Below are positions 1,317-33,745 of a stretch of 33,791 nt of DNA, piece after piece; the first letter of the stretch is position 1; each line of letters starts with the position of its first letter. A model generated the notes under the pieces. The model did no database searches. It was not told the DNA's origin and saw only the letters and a list, made by a program, of their open reading frames with translations. Source of the stretch: a virus; the IMG/VR virus record IMGVR_UViG_3300028790_000012, positions 1 to 33,791 of that record; one strand, given 5' to 3'. The position numbers and the translations under genes were made by a program.

Positions 1317-2435
1317 TCACGCCGCCCCCCAATGCTCGGCCAGGAGCGCGAGCTCGTCCTCCTTCGCGATCCAGCCCCGGCCGTCCGCGGTCTTGAAGTT
1401 GAGGCCGTACTCGTTCGGGTTCGCGGTGTTCTGTTTCCACTGCCACCAGTTCGAACCGATCTTTTCCTCGTGCGTGCGTTCGAGCGCGTAGCGCATGTGC
1501 GTGAGCGTCGGGTCGTCGCCGGTCTTGCGCCCCAGCTGCTGAATGTGGACAGGCGCGCCCGTGTCCTCGCGCAGTCGCGTCAGGTCGGCGAGCCCCGCGT
1601 CGAACTTCTGCGCGTTCGTGACCCGGCCCGAGAGTTGGTTGCCGGTGTAGACCACGTCCGAGCGCTCGGGGAGAACGGCCTCGGCCACGAGGTTGATGTT
1701 GTAGCCGTCGCGCGGCCCGATCAGGAACGGGGTGTCGGCGTCGACCTGGCGCACCGCGTCGATGACCTCGCGGTAGAAGTCGCGCACCGCGGCGGCAACC
1801 TCGGGGGGACGGCCCTCCATCATCTCGGGCTGGAGTTCGAGCAGCGCGATGCGCGCGATGGGGCGCAGGCGCGCGGCGGCGGCGCGCCAGACGACCTGCG
1901 CGAACGTGTGCCGCATCGACGGGTCGGTGAGGAAATTTCGTCCCCGCGCGCCGAACGATCCCTTCTTGTCACACCAGGCCCGCGTCTCGGCGTCCTGCGT
2001 GCCGGACTGGCCGCAATTCGAGTCGATGAACGGGATCACCCACATGCCCGCGGCTGAGCATGCCGTGATCATGTCGAGCCACTTCGCGACGTTCTCTCGC
2101 TTGAGGAACGCTACGCCGTCGTTGTCGCGGCTGTCCACGTCCTCGGGGTTGCTGCCGTGCCGGCCCCACCAGCGCAGCGCGATGCGCACGCAGTTGGCGC
2201 CGAGCGCCTTGACCTGCGGCGCGTCGTCGCCCGAGTCCTCGCCCCAGCTGCCGAAGGAGACGCCGCGCAGGATGATCGGCTGGCCGTTGGGCTTCAGGAG
2301 CTCGCCGCCCGAGCAGCGCAGCCGGGGCGGGAGTTCGTTGCCCTCGCGCTGGCGCGTGTAGGCATCCTCGATCGCCTCTCGGATGCCGTAGGGCTGGCTC
2401 GGATCAGGTCGCGAGTCCGGGTGTTCGACCATCAT
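1317..2435 (-). CDS. GH5-like (cellulase family) TIM-barrel protein with altered catalytic motifs
   Basis: A 372-residue protein starting at the first of two tandem ATGs (2435-2433), behind GGAGG. It overlaps the HNH gene stop as ATGA. The fold call rests on a GH5-style opening strand near residues 44-60 (GQPIILRGVSFGSW), a conserved ANCVRIALRWWG segment at 80-91, and a C-terminal NWWQWK motif at 329-334 like the GH5 W-x-W/Y-K strand. The expected acid/base NEP motif is replaced by ELQPEM at 200-205. The expected nucleophile motif ExG is replaced by QQLG at 299-302. No signal peptide is visible. Without the canonical glutamates it may be inactive on glycans, a binding protein, or a divergent enzyme. 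It lies in the early operon, not in a tail or lysis block, so a depolymerase or endolysin role is not supported by context. Confidence 0.65.
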   Translation of the reverse strand: MMVEHPDSRPDPSQPYGIREAIEDAYTRQREGNELPPRLRCSGGELLKPNGQPIILRGVSFGSWGEDSGDDAPQVKALGANCVRIALRWWGRHGSNPEDVDSRDNDGVAFLKRENVAKWLDMITACSAAGMWVIPFIDSNCGQSGTQDAETRAWCDKKGSFGARGRNFLTDPSMRHTFAQVVWRAAAARLRPIARIALLELQPEMMEGRPPEVAAAVRDFYREVIDAVRQVDADTPFLIGPRDGYNINLVAEAVLPERSDVVYTGNQLSGRVTNAQKFDAGLADLTRLREDTGAPVHIQQLGRKTGDDPTLTHMRYALERTHEEKIGSNWWQWKQNTANPNEYGLNFKTADGRGWIAKEDELALLAEHWGAA

Positions 2436-2809
2436 GGTTGCCTCCGATTCCAGTGGTGAAGGGCCGACGTGGGCAGGCCGTCCGCGTCGACCTTGCGCAG
2501 CGCGTGGCCAGCGACGCCCTGGCCCTTCTCGGCGTGCCGGCGCGCATCGCAGACGGTGCAGAGCACGCGCAGGTTGGCGAGCACGAGCGAGAGCGCCGGG
2601 GCCTCGCGGCGCGGGCGAATGTGGTCGACCCGCGACGCGCCGCGGGCGCGCACATCCGCGCCGCACCACGCGCAGTGATGCCCTGCGATGACGAGGGCGC
2701 GCCGGCGCAGCGCCCGCCACGCTGCGGACGAGTAGAACGGATCGCCACCCCGTTTCACGTGGAACCCGTTCGGGCGCACACTCGGCGTTGGCACCTTAGC
2801 CGTTGCCAT
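2432..2809 (-). CDS. HNH endonuclease
   Basis: A 125-residue protein with AAGGAG upstream of the ATG at 2809. Its stop overlaps the start of the GH5-like gene. A zinc-stabilised HNH fold is visible: CAWC at 46-49, VDHI with the metal-proximal His at 62-64, an Asn at 79 in the NLRVLC strand, and a second CxxC at 84-87. Such proteins cleave or nick DNA using one divalent metal ion. In phages they serve packaging, recombination or homing. Here it sits in the early/replication operon next to a conserved phage protein and far from terminase, so a recombination or replication role, or a free-standing homing enzyme, is more likely than packaging. Confidence 0.85.
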   Translation of the reverse strand: MATAKVPTPSVRPNGFHVKRGGDPFYSSAAWRALRRRALVIAGHHCAWCGADVRARGASRVDHIRPRREAPALSLVLANLRVLCTVCDARRHAEKGQGVAGHALRKVDADGLPTSALHHWNRRQP

Positions 2810-28953: not shown

Positions 28954-30666
28954 TTACCCCACCATCGAGGCAACGTTCACTTCGGTGAGCGGCGCGCGGA
29001 TCTTGCCGACCGCCATCGCGAGCGCCACCAGGCCGTCGATGCGCCCGGTCGACTTGCGCTTCGAGAAAATGCGCGAGCGCTGATCGTCTTCCAGCGTGAC
29101 GGCGCTCGCTGAGTTCCAGGTGAGGATGGGGCTTCGGCGCACGCGCAGCTTGCCTGCGAGCACGGCCTTTTCGAGCTCGTTGATCGACTGCGGCATCCAC
29201 AGCGCCGGAATCGTCTCGTCCTTCGGCGTGACCTTCACCCACCCTTGCGGGTGCTCGATGAGCGGCAGGCTGATGCCCTCGTCGTCGAGCGCCTTGCGCA
29301 AGTAGCCCATGCGCCAGCGGTCGAAGACGAGGCATTGAATGTCGAGCACGTCGACGAGCTCGCCGATGCGCCGCGCGAGCGCCGTGTAGGTCAGCGTGGC
29401 GCCGGGCTCGGTCTGCAGGAACCCCTGGCGCACCCAGGTTTCGTAGGGCACGCTGTCGCGCTCCTGCCGGCCGTGCAGGTTCTCGGCGGGCGTCCAGTAC
29501 TCCACTGCGGCGTCGAGCGTGCCGCCCGGCCCCGGCGCCACGATGGCCAGGGCGGACAGGTCGGTCGTTGCGGAGAGGTCAACCGCGAGCGTGACCTCTC
29601 GGCGCGCGAACGCTTCGGCCACGGTGCCCGCGGGATCCCGCTCGCACGCAAGCCACGCCTCGCCCGAGATCCAGGGCGAGGCGGCGTCCGTCCACTGGCA
29701 GAAGTGCAGCCGGCGAACGAGCGACTCCTTCGCGGGCATCGCGCGGGCCTCGGCAACCTGCCCTTCGAGAAAGTCCAGCTGGATCGACACGCCGAGATTC
29801 GGATTGGCCTTCGCCCAGCAGGCCGGATCGTGCAGCGGGTCGTCGCCCTCGTCGAGCGCGCAGACGTAGGCAAAGAGGCGGTCATCGACGACCTGGCGCG
29901 CGGCGACCTTGCGCGCGTGCTCGTGGTAGCGCCAGCACACCGACGTGCGATCCACGCCCGAGTTCGTGATGATGAACAGCAGCGGCTGCGTGCGTTGCTT
30001 GAAGCCGGCGCGCAGCATTTCGATCACGCCGTCGTTCTTGTGCTCGTGGAGCTCGTCGACGAGGCCGCAATACGGCTTCGGCCCCGACTGGCTCGCTGCA
30101 CTGCTCATCGTGCGAAAGAACGAGCCGCGAAAGACGATGTTCCACGGGTTCACGCCGCCCACGACCCGCACCCGGCGTGAGAGCGCAGGAGACTGCTGCA
30201 CCATCGCGACGGCGTCGCGGAACAGCACCGCGGCTTGTTCCTCCTTCGACGCCGCTGCGTACACCTCGGCGCGGGCCTCGCCGTCCGCGATCATCATCAG
30301 CAGGCCGATCCCTGCGGCAAGGGGGCTTTTCCCGTTTCCCTTCCCGGCCTCGACATAGGCCACGCGGAACCTGCGCAGGCCCCGCACGCGGTCGACCCAG
30401 CCGAACAGGCTCCCCACGATGAACGCCTGCCAGGGCGCGAGGCGGAACGGCTCGCCCTCGAATTCGCCCGCGTTCAGGCGCAGCACGTCGGCGAAAAACT
30501 CGAGCGCTCGCACCGCGCGCACCGCATCGAACTTCCAGCGCCAATCCTTGCGGGTGCGCTCGGCGAGGTGCCGCGCGCAGGCCCCTCGCACGTGCGGGCC
30601 CGCAACGATGCGTCCGGCAACGACGGCGCGTGCGTAGGCGGTGACGGGGTCGCTCGTGCGGGCCAT
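28954..30666 (-). CDS. terL: Terminase large subunit (Terminase_1 / HK97-like)
   Basis: A 570-residue protein with ATG at 30666. The ATPase Walker A is EAGKGNGKS at 106-114, preceded by FRLAPWQAFIVGSLFGW. The Walker B is GLVDELHEH at 201-209, and FIITNSG near 231-237 fits the coupling motif. The nuclease domain starts at LAVDLSATTDLSAL near 360-373, with further acidic residues in CLVFDRWRMGYL and a C-terminal KRKSTGRIDGLVALAMA. It cuts concatemeric DNA and drives packaging into the prohead through the portal. The small subunit gene lies four genes upstream, separated by DNA-modification genes. Confidence 0.95.
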   Translation of the reverse strand: MARTSDPVTAYARAVVAGRIVAGPHVRGACARHLAERTRKDWRWKFDAVRAVRALEFFADVLRLNAGEFEGEPFRLAPWQAFIVGSLFGWVDRVRGLRRFRVAYVEAGKGNGKSPLAAGIGLLMMIADGEARAEVYAAASKEEQAAVLFRDAVAMVQQSPALSRRVRVVGGVNPWNIVFRGSFFRTMSSAASQSGPKPYCGLVDELHEHKNDGVIEMLRAGFKQRTQPLLFIITNSGVDRTSVCWRYHEHARKVAARQVVDDRLFAYVCALDEGDDPLHDPACWAKANPNLGVSIQLDFLEGQVAEARAMPAKESLVRRLHFCQWTDAASPWISGEAWLACERDPAGTVAEAFARREVTLAVDLSATTDLSALAIVAPGPGGTLDAAVEYWTPAENLHGRQERDSVPYETWVRQGFLQTEPGATLTYTALARRIGELVDVLDIQCLVFDRWRMGYLRKALDDEGISLPLIEHPQGWVKVTPKDETIPALWMPQSINELEKAVLAGKLRVRRSPILTWNSASAVTLEDDQRSRIFSKRKSTGRIDGLVALAMAVGKIRAPLTEVNVASMVG

Positions 30667-30688: not shown

Positions 30689-31549
30689 TCACGGCCTCGG
30701 CTTGCGCCACTGCTCCGCGAGAATCACCGGCACCGTGTGCTGCCAATTGACGGTGTGATGCAGCCGGGCCTGGCCCGACAGCGTCGGCGGATAGAGCGCG
30801 ACGCGCACCGAGGACGGCTGGTACATCACGGTGTAGAACGACTTCACGTAGGTGCCACTCGACAGATAGAGCTCCGTCATGCCGCCCGGGTTGCTTTGCG
30901 TCGTGAGTTGCTGCAGGCCGACGTGCATCGTCATGAGGAATAGCTCGCCGCGCGAGCCGAGCGTCGTATAGGTGTTGACGTCTTCGTTGATGCGCCCGAC
31001 GAACTGGAACGGCCGATCGACGGCGCACAGAAAGCTATTCATGCACTTGCGAAGCACCCGTTTCCAATTGCCGCTGACGCCCGCGCCGATATAGTCGCCG
31101 CCTTGCGCCATCGCGAGCGAGCGCAGGCGCGGGGTGGCCTCGAAGAATTCGAGCATCGCCGCGAAGACGCCGTCGAGGTCGCGCACGCGCCAATCGCCGT
31201 AGGTGTCGCCGGGCGTGCGCTTGTGCGAAAACCCGGTGTAATCGTCATCGAGTTGCATGAAGTAGCGCAGGCCCAGGTCGCGCGCAATATCGAAGCACGC
31301 GTTGCGCGCGTAGATGATCGCGCGCCGGTCGTTGAAGTTGTCGCCCTCGTCGATGCGCTGCGCGACGGCCCGCTTGTCGAAGACGACGACCTCGTCGAAG
31401 CGGGCGCGGTAGTCCTCCAGGGTCGGGTCTTCGTCGTCGCACACGATGACGATGCGCCCCGTGTAGCCTTGCCGGCGCAGCGAGCGGTGCGTCAGCACGC
31501 GATCAGCGCGGCCGTGCGTCAGGATGAACGCGGCGAAGTCACTGCGCAT
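30689..31549 (-). CDS. TET-associated-type glycosyltransferase (TAGT-like, DNA hypermodification candidate)
   Basis: A 286-residue protein from an ATG at 31549 that overlaps the ParB-like gene by 11 nt. It opens AAFILTHGRADRVLTHRSLRRQGYTGRIVIVCDDEDPT, typical of a GT-A fold. It has a D-rich metal/nucleotide motif LDDDYT at 100-105. It then carries the KCMNSF and FQFVGRINEDVNTYT elements I recognise from phage glycosyltransferases named for association with TET/JBP oxygenases. Members are thought to add sugars to 5-hydroxymethylated pyrimidines in phage DNA, protecting it from nucleases. No TET/JBP gene is visible in this window, so the substrate is uncertain. Confidence 0.8.
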   Translation of the reverse strand: MRSDFAAFILTHGRADRVLTHRSLRRQGYTGRIVIVCDDEDPTLEDYRARFDEVVVFDKRAVAQRIDEGDNFNDRRAIIYARNACFDIARDLGLRYFMQLDDDYTGFSHKRTPGDTYGDWRVRDLDGVFAAMLEFFEATPRLRSLAMAQGGDYIGAGVSGNWKRVLRKCMNSFLCAVDRPFQFVGRINEDVNTYTTLGSRGELFLMTMHVGLQQLTTQSNPGGMTELYLSSGTYVKSFYTVMYQPSSVRVALYPPTLSGQARLHHTVNWQHTVPVILAEQWRKPRP

Positions 31550-32438
31550 CGGTGTTGCCCTCGCCCGCGTCGTCCTCAGGGATGCTTTGCGCGAACACTT
31601 CCCCGAGGCGCTCGGTCATCCTCACGAAGCCGCGTTCGATCGCCTGCTCGAAGTCGATGATGATGAGGGCCGACGCTTCCATGTGCGACTGCATCGCCGC
31701 GCTCGCGTGACAGTAGTATTCCGCGATCCGGTGGTAATCGAAGACGGTGTGGCGCGCTGCGGCGAGCAGCAAGAAGGCGCGCTCGTCTTCCGAAATATCC
31801 GCGGCGTCGCGAATCGCCTGCACGAGCGCGTCCGACTTCGTGAGGTCGGCCAACTCCGCGAGCGCGGGCTTATCGCCCTTTGGGGTATAGACGGGCGCCG
31901 TGACCGAGGGCACGTAGCGCAACGCCGATTCACTCGCGCCCCAATCGCCGAAAACCACATCGGCCAATTCGTCGTCCCCGAAGGCGAGCACGCTGGTATC
32001 GAATTCCTCGGCCTCCAGGTCTTCGAGCTCCAGGCGCAACAGGCTCGCATCCCAGCCCGCGTGCTCCGCCAGCTTGTTGTCCGCGATGACGTAGGCGCGG
32101 CGTTGCGCTTCGCTCCAGCCCGAACAGTCGAGCACGGGCACGAAGCCGGCAGGCAGCACCGTCCCGTTGGGCAGGCGGATCGCCCGTCCGTTCTCGTGCA
32201 GGCGTCGCGCCGCGAGCACGCGCCCGTGACCGGCCACGATGCCGCGCTCGTCAGCGAGGACGGGCGCCGCAAAGCCGAATTCCTCGATCGAGGCGGCGAT
32301 CTGGGCAACCTGCGCTTCGCTGTGCGTGCGCGCGTTGCGCGCGTAGGGCACGAGCGTGTCGAGGGCACGCCAGTCCAGTAGCTGATACGGGAACGCTGGC
32401 GTGTCGAGCGGTGCGGCGGCAGGCTTGCGGGCGGTCAT
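31539..32438 (-). CDS. ParB/Srx-fold nuclease-domain protein
   Basis: A 299-residue protein. The ATG at 32438 is chosen for GGGAG 8 nt upstream, over a GTG three codons earlier. Residues 22-85 form a ParB N-terminal domain: LVPYARNARTHSEAQVAQIAASIEEFGF, then PVLADERGIVAGHGRVLAARRL with the conserved GHGR motif. The rest has RRAYVIADNKLAEHAGW and an acidic helical region and contains no methyltransferase motifs, unlike the commoner ParB-MTase fusions of phages. In phage modification modules such proteins are associated with MTases and glycosyltransferases and may nick or guide DNA. The neighbours support that context. A partition role is unlikely without ParA. Confidence 0.85.
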   Translation of the reverse strand: MTARKPAAAPLDTPAFPYQLLDWRALDTLVPYARNARTHSEAQVAQIAASIEEFGFAAPVLADERGIVAGHGRVLAARRLHENGRAIRLPNGTVLPAGFVPVLDCSGWSEAQRRAYVIADNKLAEHAGWDASLLRLELEDLEAEEFDTSVLAFGDDELADVVFGDWGASESALRYVPSVTAPVYTPKGDKPALAELADLTKSDALVQAIRDAADISEDERAFLLLAAARHTVFDYHRIAEYYCHASAAMQSHMEASALIIIDFEQAIERGFVRMTERLGEVFAQSIPEDDAGEGNTDAQ

Positions 32439-32453
32439 TCGTCGCACTCCCGT

Positions 32454-33269
32454 TCAGCTGCGGGCATCGAGACAGGCGCGCACGAAGGTCGCGGCGAGCG
32501 GCGGCACGACGGCGTTACCGTAGGCGCGCAGGCGTCCCACGCGGCCGGGAATCCCATCAGCCAGCGGGCATGTGCCGGGCTCAACAGGGCGCCACCGTTC
32601 ATCCCGGCAGCGCAGCCAATCAGCGTCACTCCATTCGTGGTGCGTCGCGCGGGGTGCTCGTGCAGGAGCATGCGCACCATGTCCTGCAGGCTGACCTGTC
32701 GCCCCTGCGCGATCCGTTTCTCGGGGTCGGTGCCCCTGCCACGCAGGTTCTGCGGCGAGCACGCGGTCGGCGTCGGCCAGCCAGTACAGGCGGTGGCGGA
32801 TGTGCGGGGCGCCTGCACCCGCTGCGCACAGATCAGCCGCCGCGACGGCGTAGCCCGCGTCTTCCAGGTCAGCGAAAACAAGATCGAGCCAGGCAAGTCC
32901 GTCGAAGCTTGCAACCTGCTCGCCAAGGATGCAGCGAGGTCGGCACTCGCGCACGAGCCGCGACCATGTCGGCCATAGGTGGCGCTCGTCCGCATCCCCA
33001 CCACGAGCGCCGGCTTCGCTGAAGGGCTGGCAGGGGCAGCTACCTGTCCAAACAGGTCGAGCGTCGTGCCAGCCGGCCAGACGCAAGGCAAGACTCCAGC
33101 CACCGATGCCAGCGAAGAAATGGCACTGGGTGAACCCGGCGAGGTCGCCGGGGGTGACCTCTTCGATGCTTCGATCATCAACATGCCCTTTCGCGATCAG
33201 GCCGCGCTCGATCAGGTTGCGCAGCCACTGCGCCGCGAACGGATCGTTCTCGTTGAAGTAGGCCGTCAT
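32454..33269 (-). CDS. DNA cytosine-5 methyltransferase (Dcm-like)
   Basis: A 271-residue protein whose ATG overlaps the TerS stop (ATGA). Motif I HFFAGIGGWS is at 50-59 for S-adenosylmethionine binding. Motif IV SCPCQPFS is at 77-84, with catalytic Cys80. Motif VI is GEQV at 116-119, where ENV is usual. Motif VIII is HIRHRLYW, and the C-terminal motif X region is RLRAYGNAVVP. The YFNENDPFAAQWLRNLI N-terminus is typical of phage enzymes. The target recognition region is short. It methylates C5 of cytosine to evade restriction or prepare bases for further modification. A second long open frame overlaps it (see findings). Confidence 0.92.
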   Translation of the reverse strand: MTAYFNENDPFAAQWLRNLIERGLIAKGHVDDRSIEEVTPGDLAGFTQCHFFAGIGGWSLALRLAGWHDARPVWTGSCPCQPFSEAGARGGDADERHLWPTWSRLVRECRPRCILGEQVASFDGLAWLDLVFADLEDAGYAVAAADLCAAGAGAPHIRHRLYWLADADRVLAAEPAWQGHRPRETDRAGATGQPAGHGAHAPARAPRATHHEWSDADWLRCRDERWRPVEPGTCPLADGIPGRVGRLRAYGNAVVPPLAATFVRACLDARS

Positions 33270-33745
33270 TTCAAGAACCGTTCGAGCTCGTCCGCTGCGC
33301 CTGGGGGGACGACGGTCACGCGCGCCCGTGCGCTCGGCGTAAACCCGAGCTCGCCTTGAAGCATGCGCATCGATTCGGCCAGGCGCCGGAGCTCGCGCAT
33401 CAGCGGGTTCGTCACCGTGCCCGTGTGGCCCTCGGCGGCGCGCACGAGCACCTGACAGCCGGTCTCGTTGAACAGGACGAGCGCCTTGTCGCGCGCGGCG
33501 ACCGTGACAACGTAGTTGACGAGCAGGTCCCGATCGACACCGGTCAGCAGGCCGGGCGGTGCGTCCTCGACGAGACGCGTCCAGATCGCACGCTGATCGT
33601 CGTTGAACGACGCGGGAGCGTCGCCCACCGGGCTTCGAGGGGTCGCCAACAGCGGCAAACGCGCGCGAGCAGCCGCCCCCATGTGGCGCATCGATCCATC
33701 GATCAATTTCAGCGCTACAGGCTTCGGTTTCTGTCCTCTTTGCAT
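33266..33745 (-). CDS. terS: Terminase small subunit, P27 family
   Basis: A 159-residue protein from an ATG at 33745. It opens with the basic MQRGQKPKPVALKLIDGS segment characteristic of the P27 family. The RLPLLATPRSPVGDAPASFNDDQRAIWTRLVEDAPPGLLTGVDRDLLVNYVVTVAARDKAL helical plan follows, then a C-terminal RRLAESMRMLQGELGFTPSARARV region. These proteins bind pac/cos DNA and regulate TerL. The 46 bases upstream to the window edge have no clear cos or promoter. TerS and TerL are separated here by three modification-related genes. Confidence 0.9.
   Translation of the reverse strand: MQRGQKPKPVALKLIDGSMRHMGAAARARLPLLATPRSPVGDAPASFNDDQRAIWTRLVEDAPPGLLTGVDRDLLVNYVVTVAARDKALVLFNETGCQVLVRAAEGHTGTVTNPLMRELRRLAESMRMLQGELGFTPSARARVTVVPPGAADELERFLK

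Follow-up and report, generated by a model that had tools for sequence, protein, structure and literature searches.

A ParB-like gene and the glycosyltransferase gene of the TAGT family (Pfam PF20691) that follows it form a conserved dyad, located just upstream of the terminase in many unrelated phages. On balance, and with some reserve, comparison of the sequences leads us to favour the reading that the two genes constitute a self-contained unit that would glycosylate DNA independently of any TET/JBP oxygenase. The window, the whole stretch of DNA analysed, derives from an uncultivated tailed phage; it is linear and fragmentary, measures 33,791 bp and carries no completeness estimate. The dyad resides there in a run of genes, all on the minus strand, in the order TerS, C5-MT, ParB-like, TAGT and TerL:

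33266-33745, minus strand: TerS, terminase small subunit (PF05119, 2e-13)
32454-33269, minus strand: C5-MT, phage orphan C5-cytosine methyltransferase (PF00145, 4e-15; phrog_363, 1e-82)
32435-33184, minus strand: ALT, predicted gene of 249 aa nested within the MT gene, +1 frame (phrog_1008, 7e-22; phrog_31772, 8e-21)
31539-32447, minus strand: ParB-like, ParB/Srx-domain protein of 302 aa (phrog_620, 1e-48)
32058-32372, minus strand: ParB N-terminal domain, residues ~26-130 (profile matches; closest to the ParB domains of phage DNA methyltransferase fusions)
31623-31916, minus strand: conserved C-terminal domain of the dyad ParB, residues ~178-275 (column conservation; presence in dyad loci)
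30689-31549, minus strand: TAGT-family glycosyltransferase (PF20691, GT-A type) of 286 aa (Pfam, 4e-37; phrog_842, 3e-70)
28954-30666, minus strand: TerL, terminase large subunit (PF03354, 5e-25; PF20441, 3e-30)

The ParB reading frame overlaps the start of the TAGT gene by 11 bp, and the ALT stop overlaps the ParB start. Profile matches confirm the gene positions given in a preliminary description of this DNA, which had placed a C5-methyltransferase, a ParB-like gene and a glycosyltransferase between terS and terL; the motifs FILTHGR, LDDDYT and GRINEDVNTY that it had listed for the glycosyltransferase are all present.

The glycosyltransferase belongs to PF20691, matching the full domain (profile positions 3-205 of 205) with a score of 128.7 bits (family cut-off 27.5), and its putative activity, by family, is sugar transfer to hydroxylated or glucosylated DNA pyrimidines. 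In an alignment of 21 divergent sequences, the GT-A type DxD and catalytic-type residues D101-D103, D190, H264 and H265 are invariant, and relatives that keep the active-site residues span 29-72% identity. The active-site-type residues are intact, and the loss of catalytic residues that, together with unmodified cytosines, had been named as evidence against the preliminary reading is not seen. No relative of the window TAGT with a solved structure was found by sequence.

A scan of IMG/VR with the window glycosyltransferase as query yielded 80 loci. Two of these, on contigs that begin inside the gene, were left out of the ParB count; in all of the others (78/78 loci with room) the same ParB-like gene lies directly upstream of the glycosyltransferase, with the two frames overlapping or touching. 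The pair also occurs in the Lactobacillus phages c5 and jlb1, the haloarchaeal (Haloarcula) virus HHTV-2, the Nocardia phage NTR1 and a Porphyromonas phage, and the hosts of dyad phages include Gram-negatives, Gram-positives and archaea. A branch of giant Vibrio phages carries the TAGT without a ParB neighbour. Several of the dyad relatives are fragments, and Salmonella phage SPF_0923 was not counted among the complete phage genomes because it contains host genes (sitABCD and others) that make the record look like a prophage assembly. Clustering of the flanking open reading frames over 53 dereplicated groups recovered the glycosyltransferase in 53, ParB in 51 and TerL in 24, followed by other downstream genes, and revealed one small HTH, small-terminase-like family 0.6 kb downstream of the dyad. 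No third recurrent enzyme emerged from these flanks, where besides ParB only terminase-type genes recur. In annotated dyad phages, the terminase is found from immediately to ~3 kb downstream of the pair.

In E. coli, the pair corresponds to ynaK (the ParB) and an adjoining gene annotated as 'GREB1-related protein' (the glycosyltransferase), which are carried by prophages in the Rac arrangement, next to trkG. It was matched in 1575 of 5426 complete genomes (~29%), with 887 genomes covering at least 80% of the pair; a plasmid search with the E. coli-type glycosyltransferase gave no match. In contrast to strains with an intact pair, the Rac prophage of K-12 has lost the glycosyltransferase and the genes after it by deletion and retains a ynaK truncated to only 87 aa. 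Such erosion might suggest that the dyad is cargo that has decayed or has no function, but the invariance of the active site across distant relatives and the intact pairs in phages of archaea and of several bacterial phyla render this reading extremely improbable.

The N-terminal part of the partner is a ParB N-terminal domain by profile comparison, with matches to the PDB entries of Noc, Spo0J and ParB at 1e-7 to 1e-9; Foldseek also returns ParB matches with probabilities of up to 1.00, yet at E-values of 2e-3 and weaker. Residues G73, R76 and D123-N124 are conserved, consistent with putative CTP binding and clamp formation. Dyad members aside, the named top matches of this domain are mostly ParB domains inside phage DNA methyltransferases, to which it is ~40-63% identical over ~105-165 residues. 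These fusions carry a methyltransferase, whereas the dyad protein carries a C-terminal domain of its own and has a separate glycosyltransferase beside it. The C-terminal domain, with the pattern Y..KI..P.YEP.G.KP ... RH.VF.Y..IA.YYAHA ... LMEDSALVIIDF, is the best conserved part of the dyad ParB (mean column conservation of 0.57-0.68 versus 0.43 for the ParB domain), and a search for its fold gave no convincing PDB match. All dyad loci with room (87/87) encode it and none of the TET loci (0/18) does; it therefore tracks the glycosyltransferase clade. We propose that this domain couples ParB to the glycosyltransferase.

The preliminary description had remarked on the lack of a TET/JBP gene in the window and had offered, as one option, that the oxygenase lies outside it. 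A search of the record with PF12851 (Tet_JBP) gave no match, and for the record itself this negative is meaningful because the same search recovers 6/6 known TET phages. PF12851 was likewise absent from the 50 dyad records (0/50), where a lone weak match (11.1 bits, E 0.0025) lies far below the family cut-off and was taken as chance, and no TET was found in the complete dyad phage records HHTV-2, c5, NTR1 and Porphyromonas phage005b (0/4). Moreover, a profile derived from phage TET loci recovered all of the 18 loci used (18/18) and gave 0 matches across 1.25 Mb of dyad sequence. Since TET is missing from complete genomes with the pair too, its absence beside the TAGT is not an effect of the window edge: the glycosyltransferase without TET is real. 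By extension from these relatives, the full genome of the source phage, beyond the ends of the record, is probably free of TET as well.

TET/JBP-associated glycosyltransferases reportedly figure in the MT-TET-GT phage clusters treated by Burke in 2021 and Pyle in 2024. Such clusters resemble the dyad locus in that their glycosyltransferases belong to the same Pfam family, PF20691, and in that the mycobacteriophage version likewise has a ParB-like gene close by. There the order is ParB-like, TET, TAGT, with the TAGT directly after TET, and in mycobacteriophage Nigel the ParB-like gene precedes TET. The dyad differs in having no TET, in the additional conserved C-terminal domain of its ParB and in a methyltransferase that is probably incidental to the locus. 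In a maximum-likelihood tree, used for clade separation rather than branching order because its branches are long, the TET-linked TAGTs form a clade of their own (support 99/98), which is separated by a very large distance from the ParB-linked clade with the window TAGT. Could the window nevertheless show part of an ordinary MT-TET-TAGT cluster for 5-hydroxymethylcytosine (hmC) hypermodification, with TET just beyond its edge? A C5-MT does lie upstream of the glycosyltransferase, and the record is a fragment; however, the window has neither a TET nor a glycosyltransferase of the TET-linked clade, and the closest relative, with 72% glycosyltransferase identity on a 46 kb contig, has neither TET nor C5-MT. 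On the evidence of the tree and of the TET-free complete genomes of relatives, a TET just beyond the window was rejected, and we regard an ordinary cluster as very improbable.

The methyltransferase itself is well formed, with C5-MT motifs I (FAGIGGWS), IV (PCQPF, containing PC), VI (GEQV, containing E), VIII (IRHR) and X (YGNAVVP). Its family is very common in phages (at least 599 stretches matched), and among the dyad loci compared it adjoins the dyad only here. A C5-MT (PF00145) was found in only 4/50 dyad records, and membership of the conserved module was rejected on these two counts. The gene is probably an independent orphan methyltransferase, an accessory neighbour rather than a part of the dyad. 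Accordingly, a reduced MT-TET-GT route, as the preliminary description had envisaged for this phage, is not supported: the methyltransferase is outside the conserved unit, the TAGT falls in a separate clade and the constant partner is ParB. What stands of that overall reading is a route free of TET; its unit is the ParB-TAGT pair, to which the methyltransferase is probably incidental.

Within the methyltransferase gene we observed a further open reading frame, ALT, that the preliminary description does not mention. Both PHROG families that it matches, phrog_1008 and phrog_31772, are labelled 'DNA methyltransferase'. ALT is open in the same +1 frame in 81/81 MT genes (the window and 80 relatives), over 216-300 codons. 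Under a null in which the MT protein is fixed and its synonymous codons are shuffled, 2.75 stops are expected per gene, whereas none occur in the 81 genes; the other alternative frame, with 12.8 stops versus 10.9 expected, is near expectation. For the window alone, 22% of shuffles are also free of stops in the ALT frame, so that the evidence for ALT is comparative. Within the overlap, identity at fourfold-degenerate MT sites is 57% where 27% is expected, compared with ~32.5% versus 28% outside it and 28% versus 26.5% in the glycosyltransferase, which served as the control gene. ALT protein identity is 47% versus 27% in the null. A GGAG properly spaced before the in-frame ATG position is present in 27 of 59 distinct sequences, 25 of them with ATG, versus 9.6 expected (p ~1e-7); these counts are not independent because the sequences are related, and the GC content is 52-70%, while the effect is large. 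Given the excess of third-position identity, the comparison indicates that the overlap is dual-coding and under purifying selection beyond the MT frame, with a predicted protein product. Phage N15 gene 58 (gp58) has a similar long open +1 frame of ~240 codons. A standalone form of the protein, which had been expected, was not found among the loci examined, all of which (77/77) have ALT nested in the MT. An AlphaFold model of ALT is of low confidence (pLDDT 61), and we therefore claim no fold. An HNH gene concealed out of frame within a different phage methylase offers a precedent for the arrangement, rather than for the ALT protein (PMC11855218). In this very common family of phage cytosine methyltransferases, ALT would thus represent an overlapping gene of considerable length under strong selection, which annotation conceals by the label 'DNA methyltransferase'.

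With TET lacking, the acceptor of the dyad glycosyltransferase could still be a hydroxymethylated or hydroxylated base, as in the T-even or TET phages, prepared by an unrecognised enzyme of the phage or by the host. To our knowledge, none of the host groups involved, Gram-negatives, Gram-positives and archaea, is known to supply hmC. The T6 beta-glucosyl-HMC-alpha-glucosyltransferase (ggt/TAGT), from which the family takes its PHROG name, shares PF20691 and the GT-A fold type with the dyad enzymes but is very distant from them in sequence. According to the portion of the literature available to us, it acts on glucosyl-hmC in DNA and requires a prior hydroxyl and sugar (PMC13216743), and TAGT members of known activity such as T6 use hmC-derived bases (PMC13216743, PMC13390438), which favours a prepared acceptor. 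T6 pairs its TAGT with a dCMP hydroxymethylase and an alpha-GT, whereas the dyad records lack a hydroxymethylase of the thymidylate-synthase family: a PF00303 search, along the lines that the preliminary description had suggested, was negative in the 50 dyad records (0/50) and positive in the control genomes. This sets the dyad apart from the T-even hmC glucosylation system, and the hydroxymethylase route was rejected on this basis. The c5 genome (31.8 kb) is annotated, over its full length, with no enzyme of base or nucleotide modification other than the pair. Many small genes of dyad phages are without annotation and could harbour a precursor enzyme; on the other hand, nothing but ParB and terminase-type genes recurs with the glycosyltransferase in the flanks, TET and the thymidylate-synthase-family enzyme are both absent from the 50 records, and the hosts span groups not known to supply hmC. 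We therefore judge an acceptor prepared in this way to be unlikely, if still deserving of attention.

Among the options in the preliminary description, the third, a different substrate for the glycosyltransferase, gives the best fit if a different route is included in it. We infer that DNA is the target because most of the named kin of the ParB domain, dyad members aside, sit in phage DNA methyltransferases, because a ParB-like gene precedes TET in Nigel and because the T6 TAGT is DNA-directed, as far as the accessible part of the source relates (PMC13216743). In the favoured two-gene reading, the ParB domain would bind DNA, perhaps loading on it in the manner of CTP-dependent ParB clamps; the glycosyltransferase would be recruited by the C-terminal domain and would use a nucleotide sugar, via its DDD/NED/HH site, to modify the DNA. 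Modification would probably take place late in infection, near packaging, and may protect the DNA from host nucleases. As acceptor, a canonical base may serve; alternatively, ParB or its C-terminal domain may prepare the base, or the host may provide a modified one. If there is no precursor enzyme, then either a canonical base would be glycosylated or the ParB protein would do more than bind DNA. A stronger version, in which the dyad amounts to a complete DNA hypermodification pathway, with a ParB-guided or ParB-activated glycosyltransferase acting on a base unprepared by any oxygenase or hydroxymethylase, and is widespread in tailed viruses of bacteria and archaea and in E. coli Rac-type prophages, we put forward tentatively, as the less probable form of the proposal; a canonical base may then be glycosylated directly, or the hydroxyl may be made by the ParB C-terminal domain.

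GT-A/GT2-like enzymes frequently glycosylate proteins or glycans, and the pair might instead regulate packaging or superinfection by glycosylating a protein, be it ParB itself (for example its C-terminal domain), the terminase or a virion protein. The position of the dyad beside terminase and structural genes is in keeping with such a role, as is the C-terminal domain, the most conserved part of the partner, which tracks the glycosyltransferase. The ParB domain, however, recurs in DNA-modifying proteins, and the T6 enzyme is directed at DNA, so that we deem a protein target quite unlikely and retain DNA as the preferred one.

A 2026 NAR study of T4 glucosyltransferases counts solitary TAGTs, without an alpha/beta-GT, in 288 of 753 genomes and, in the part of the text accessible to us, leaves their function yet to be defined (PMC13216743). 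The dyad phages are similar in carrying a TAGT without an alpha/beta-GT; that part of the article makes no mention of a ParB partner or its C-terminal domain, of TET being absent or of Rac-type prophages (PMC13216743). Among open papers, we found none that describes a ParB partner of TAGT, and a 2013 NAR comparative-genomics paper and a 2024 Cell Reports paper may touch on the subject. Where a TET had seemed to be missing, the dyad now offers a defined unit of two genes that is widespread and in which the partner is constant. It provides the solitary TAGTs with a genomic context and with a clean system for laboratory work, in which E. coli K-12 is a natural null beside the many E. coli strains that carry an intact pair. 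If ParB and the glycosyltransferase suffice for DNA modification, the dyad would represent a route of phage DNA hypermodification that proceeds without a known acceptor-preparing step.

The C5-cytosine methyltransferase gene (MT) of the window carries a second gene within it, here called ALT:

window 32435-33184, minus strand: ALT, a gene of about 250 codons nested inside the phage MT (32454-33269) and read in its +1 frame

The ALT frame is uninterrupted in all 81 of the 81 MT genes examined and is under purifying selection beyond what the MT accounts for. The database label 'DNA methyltransferase' conceals this nested gene.

Two loci concern the dyad formed by a ParB-like gene and a TAGT glycosyltransferase gene (GT) and its remnant in the E. 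coli Rac prophage:

L280, 9378-9641: ynaK of E. coli K-12 Rac
L279, 9001-10717: the second locus

Intact E. coli strains retain both ParB and GT, whereas K-12 has lost the GT; Rac ynaK is a leftover of the dyad ParB. In the intact strain PF9285, ynaK is tagged partial in the RefSeq annotation, yet its full 263-aa frame is open.

Elsewhere, one viral contig bears two dyads in tandem (L042, 7012-9522). Large Vibrio phages (~195 kb; L088, 7890-8891) are the exception to the dyad: their TAGT, from the ParB-linked clade, lies in a replication region with no ParB neighbour.

Another gene of the record is found near its left edge:

window 1317-2720, minus strand: GH5 cellulase-like protein (PF00150, 2e-12)

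Its product possibly degrades polysaccharide, or else it may be a host gene flanking the phage.

Mycobacteriophage-type clusters (L191, L192 and L276-L278) have the order ParB-like, TET/JBP dioxygenase, TAGT. In L191 and L192 two further ORFs follow these genes: one bears a PIG-L-like PHxDDxExG motif and the other resembles a P-loop kinase, both judged by eye. This arrangement suggests a longer hypermodification pathway.
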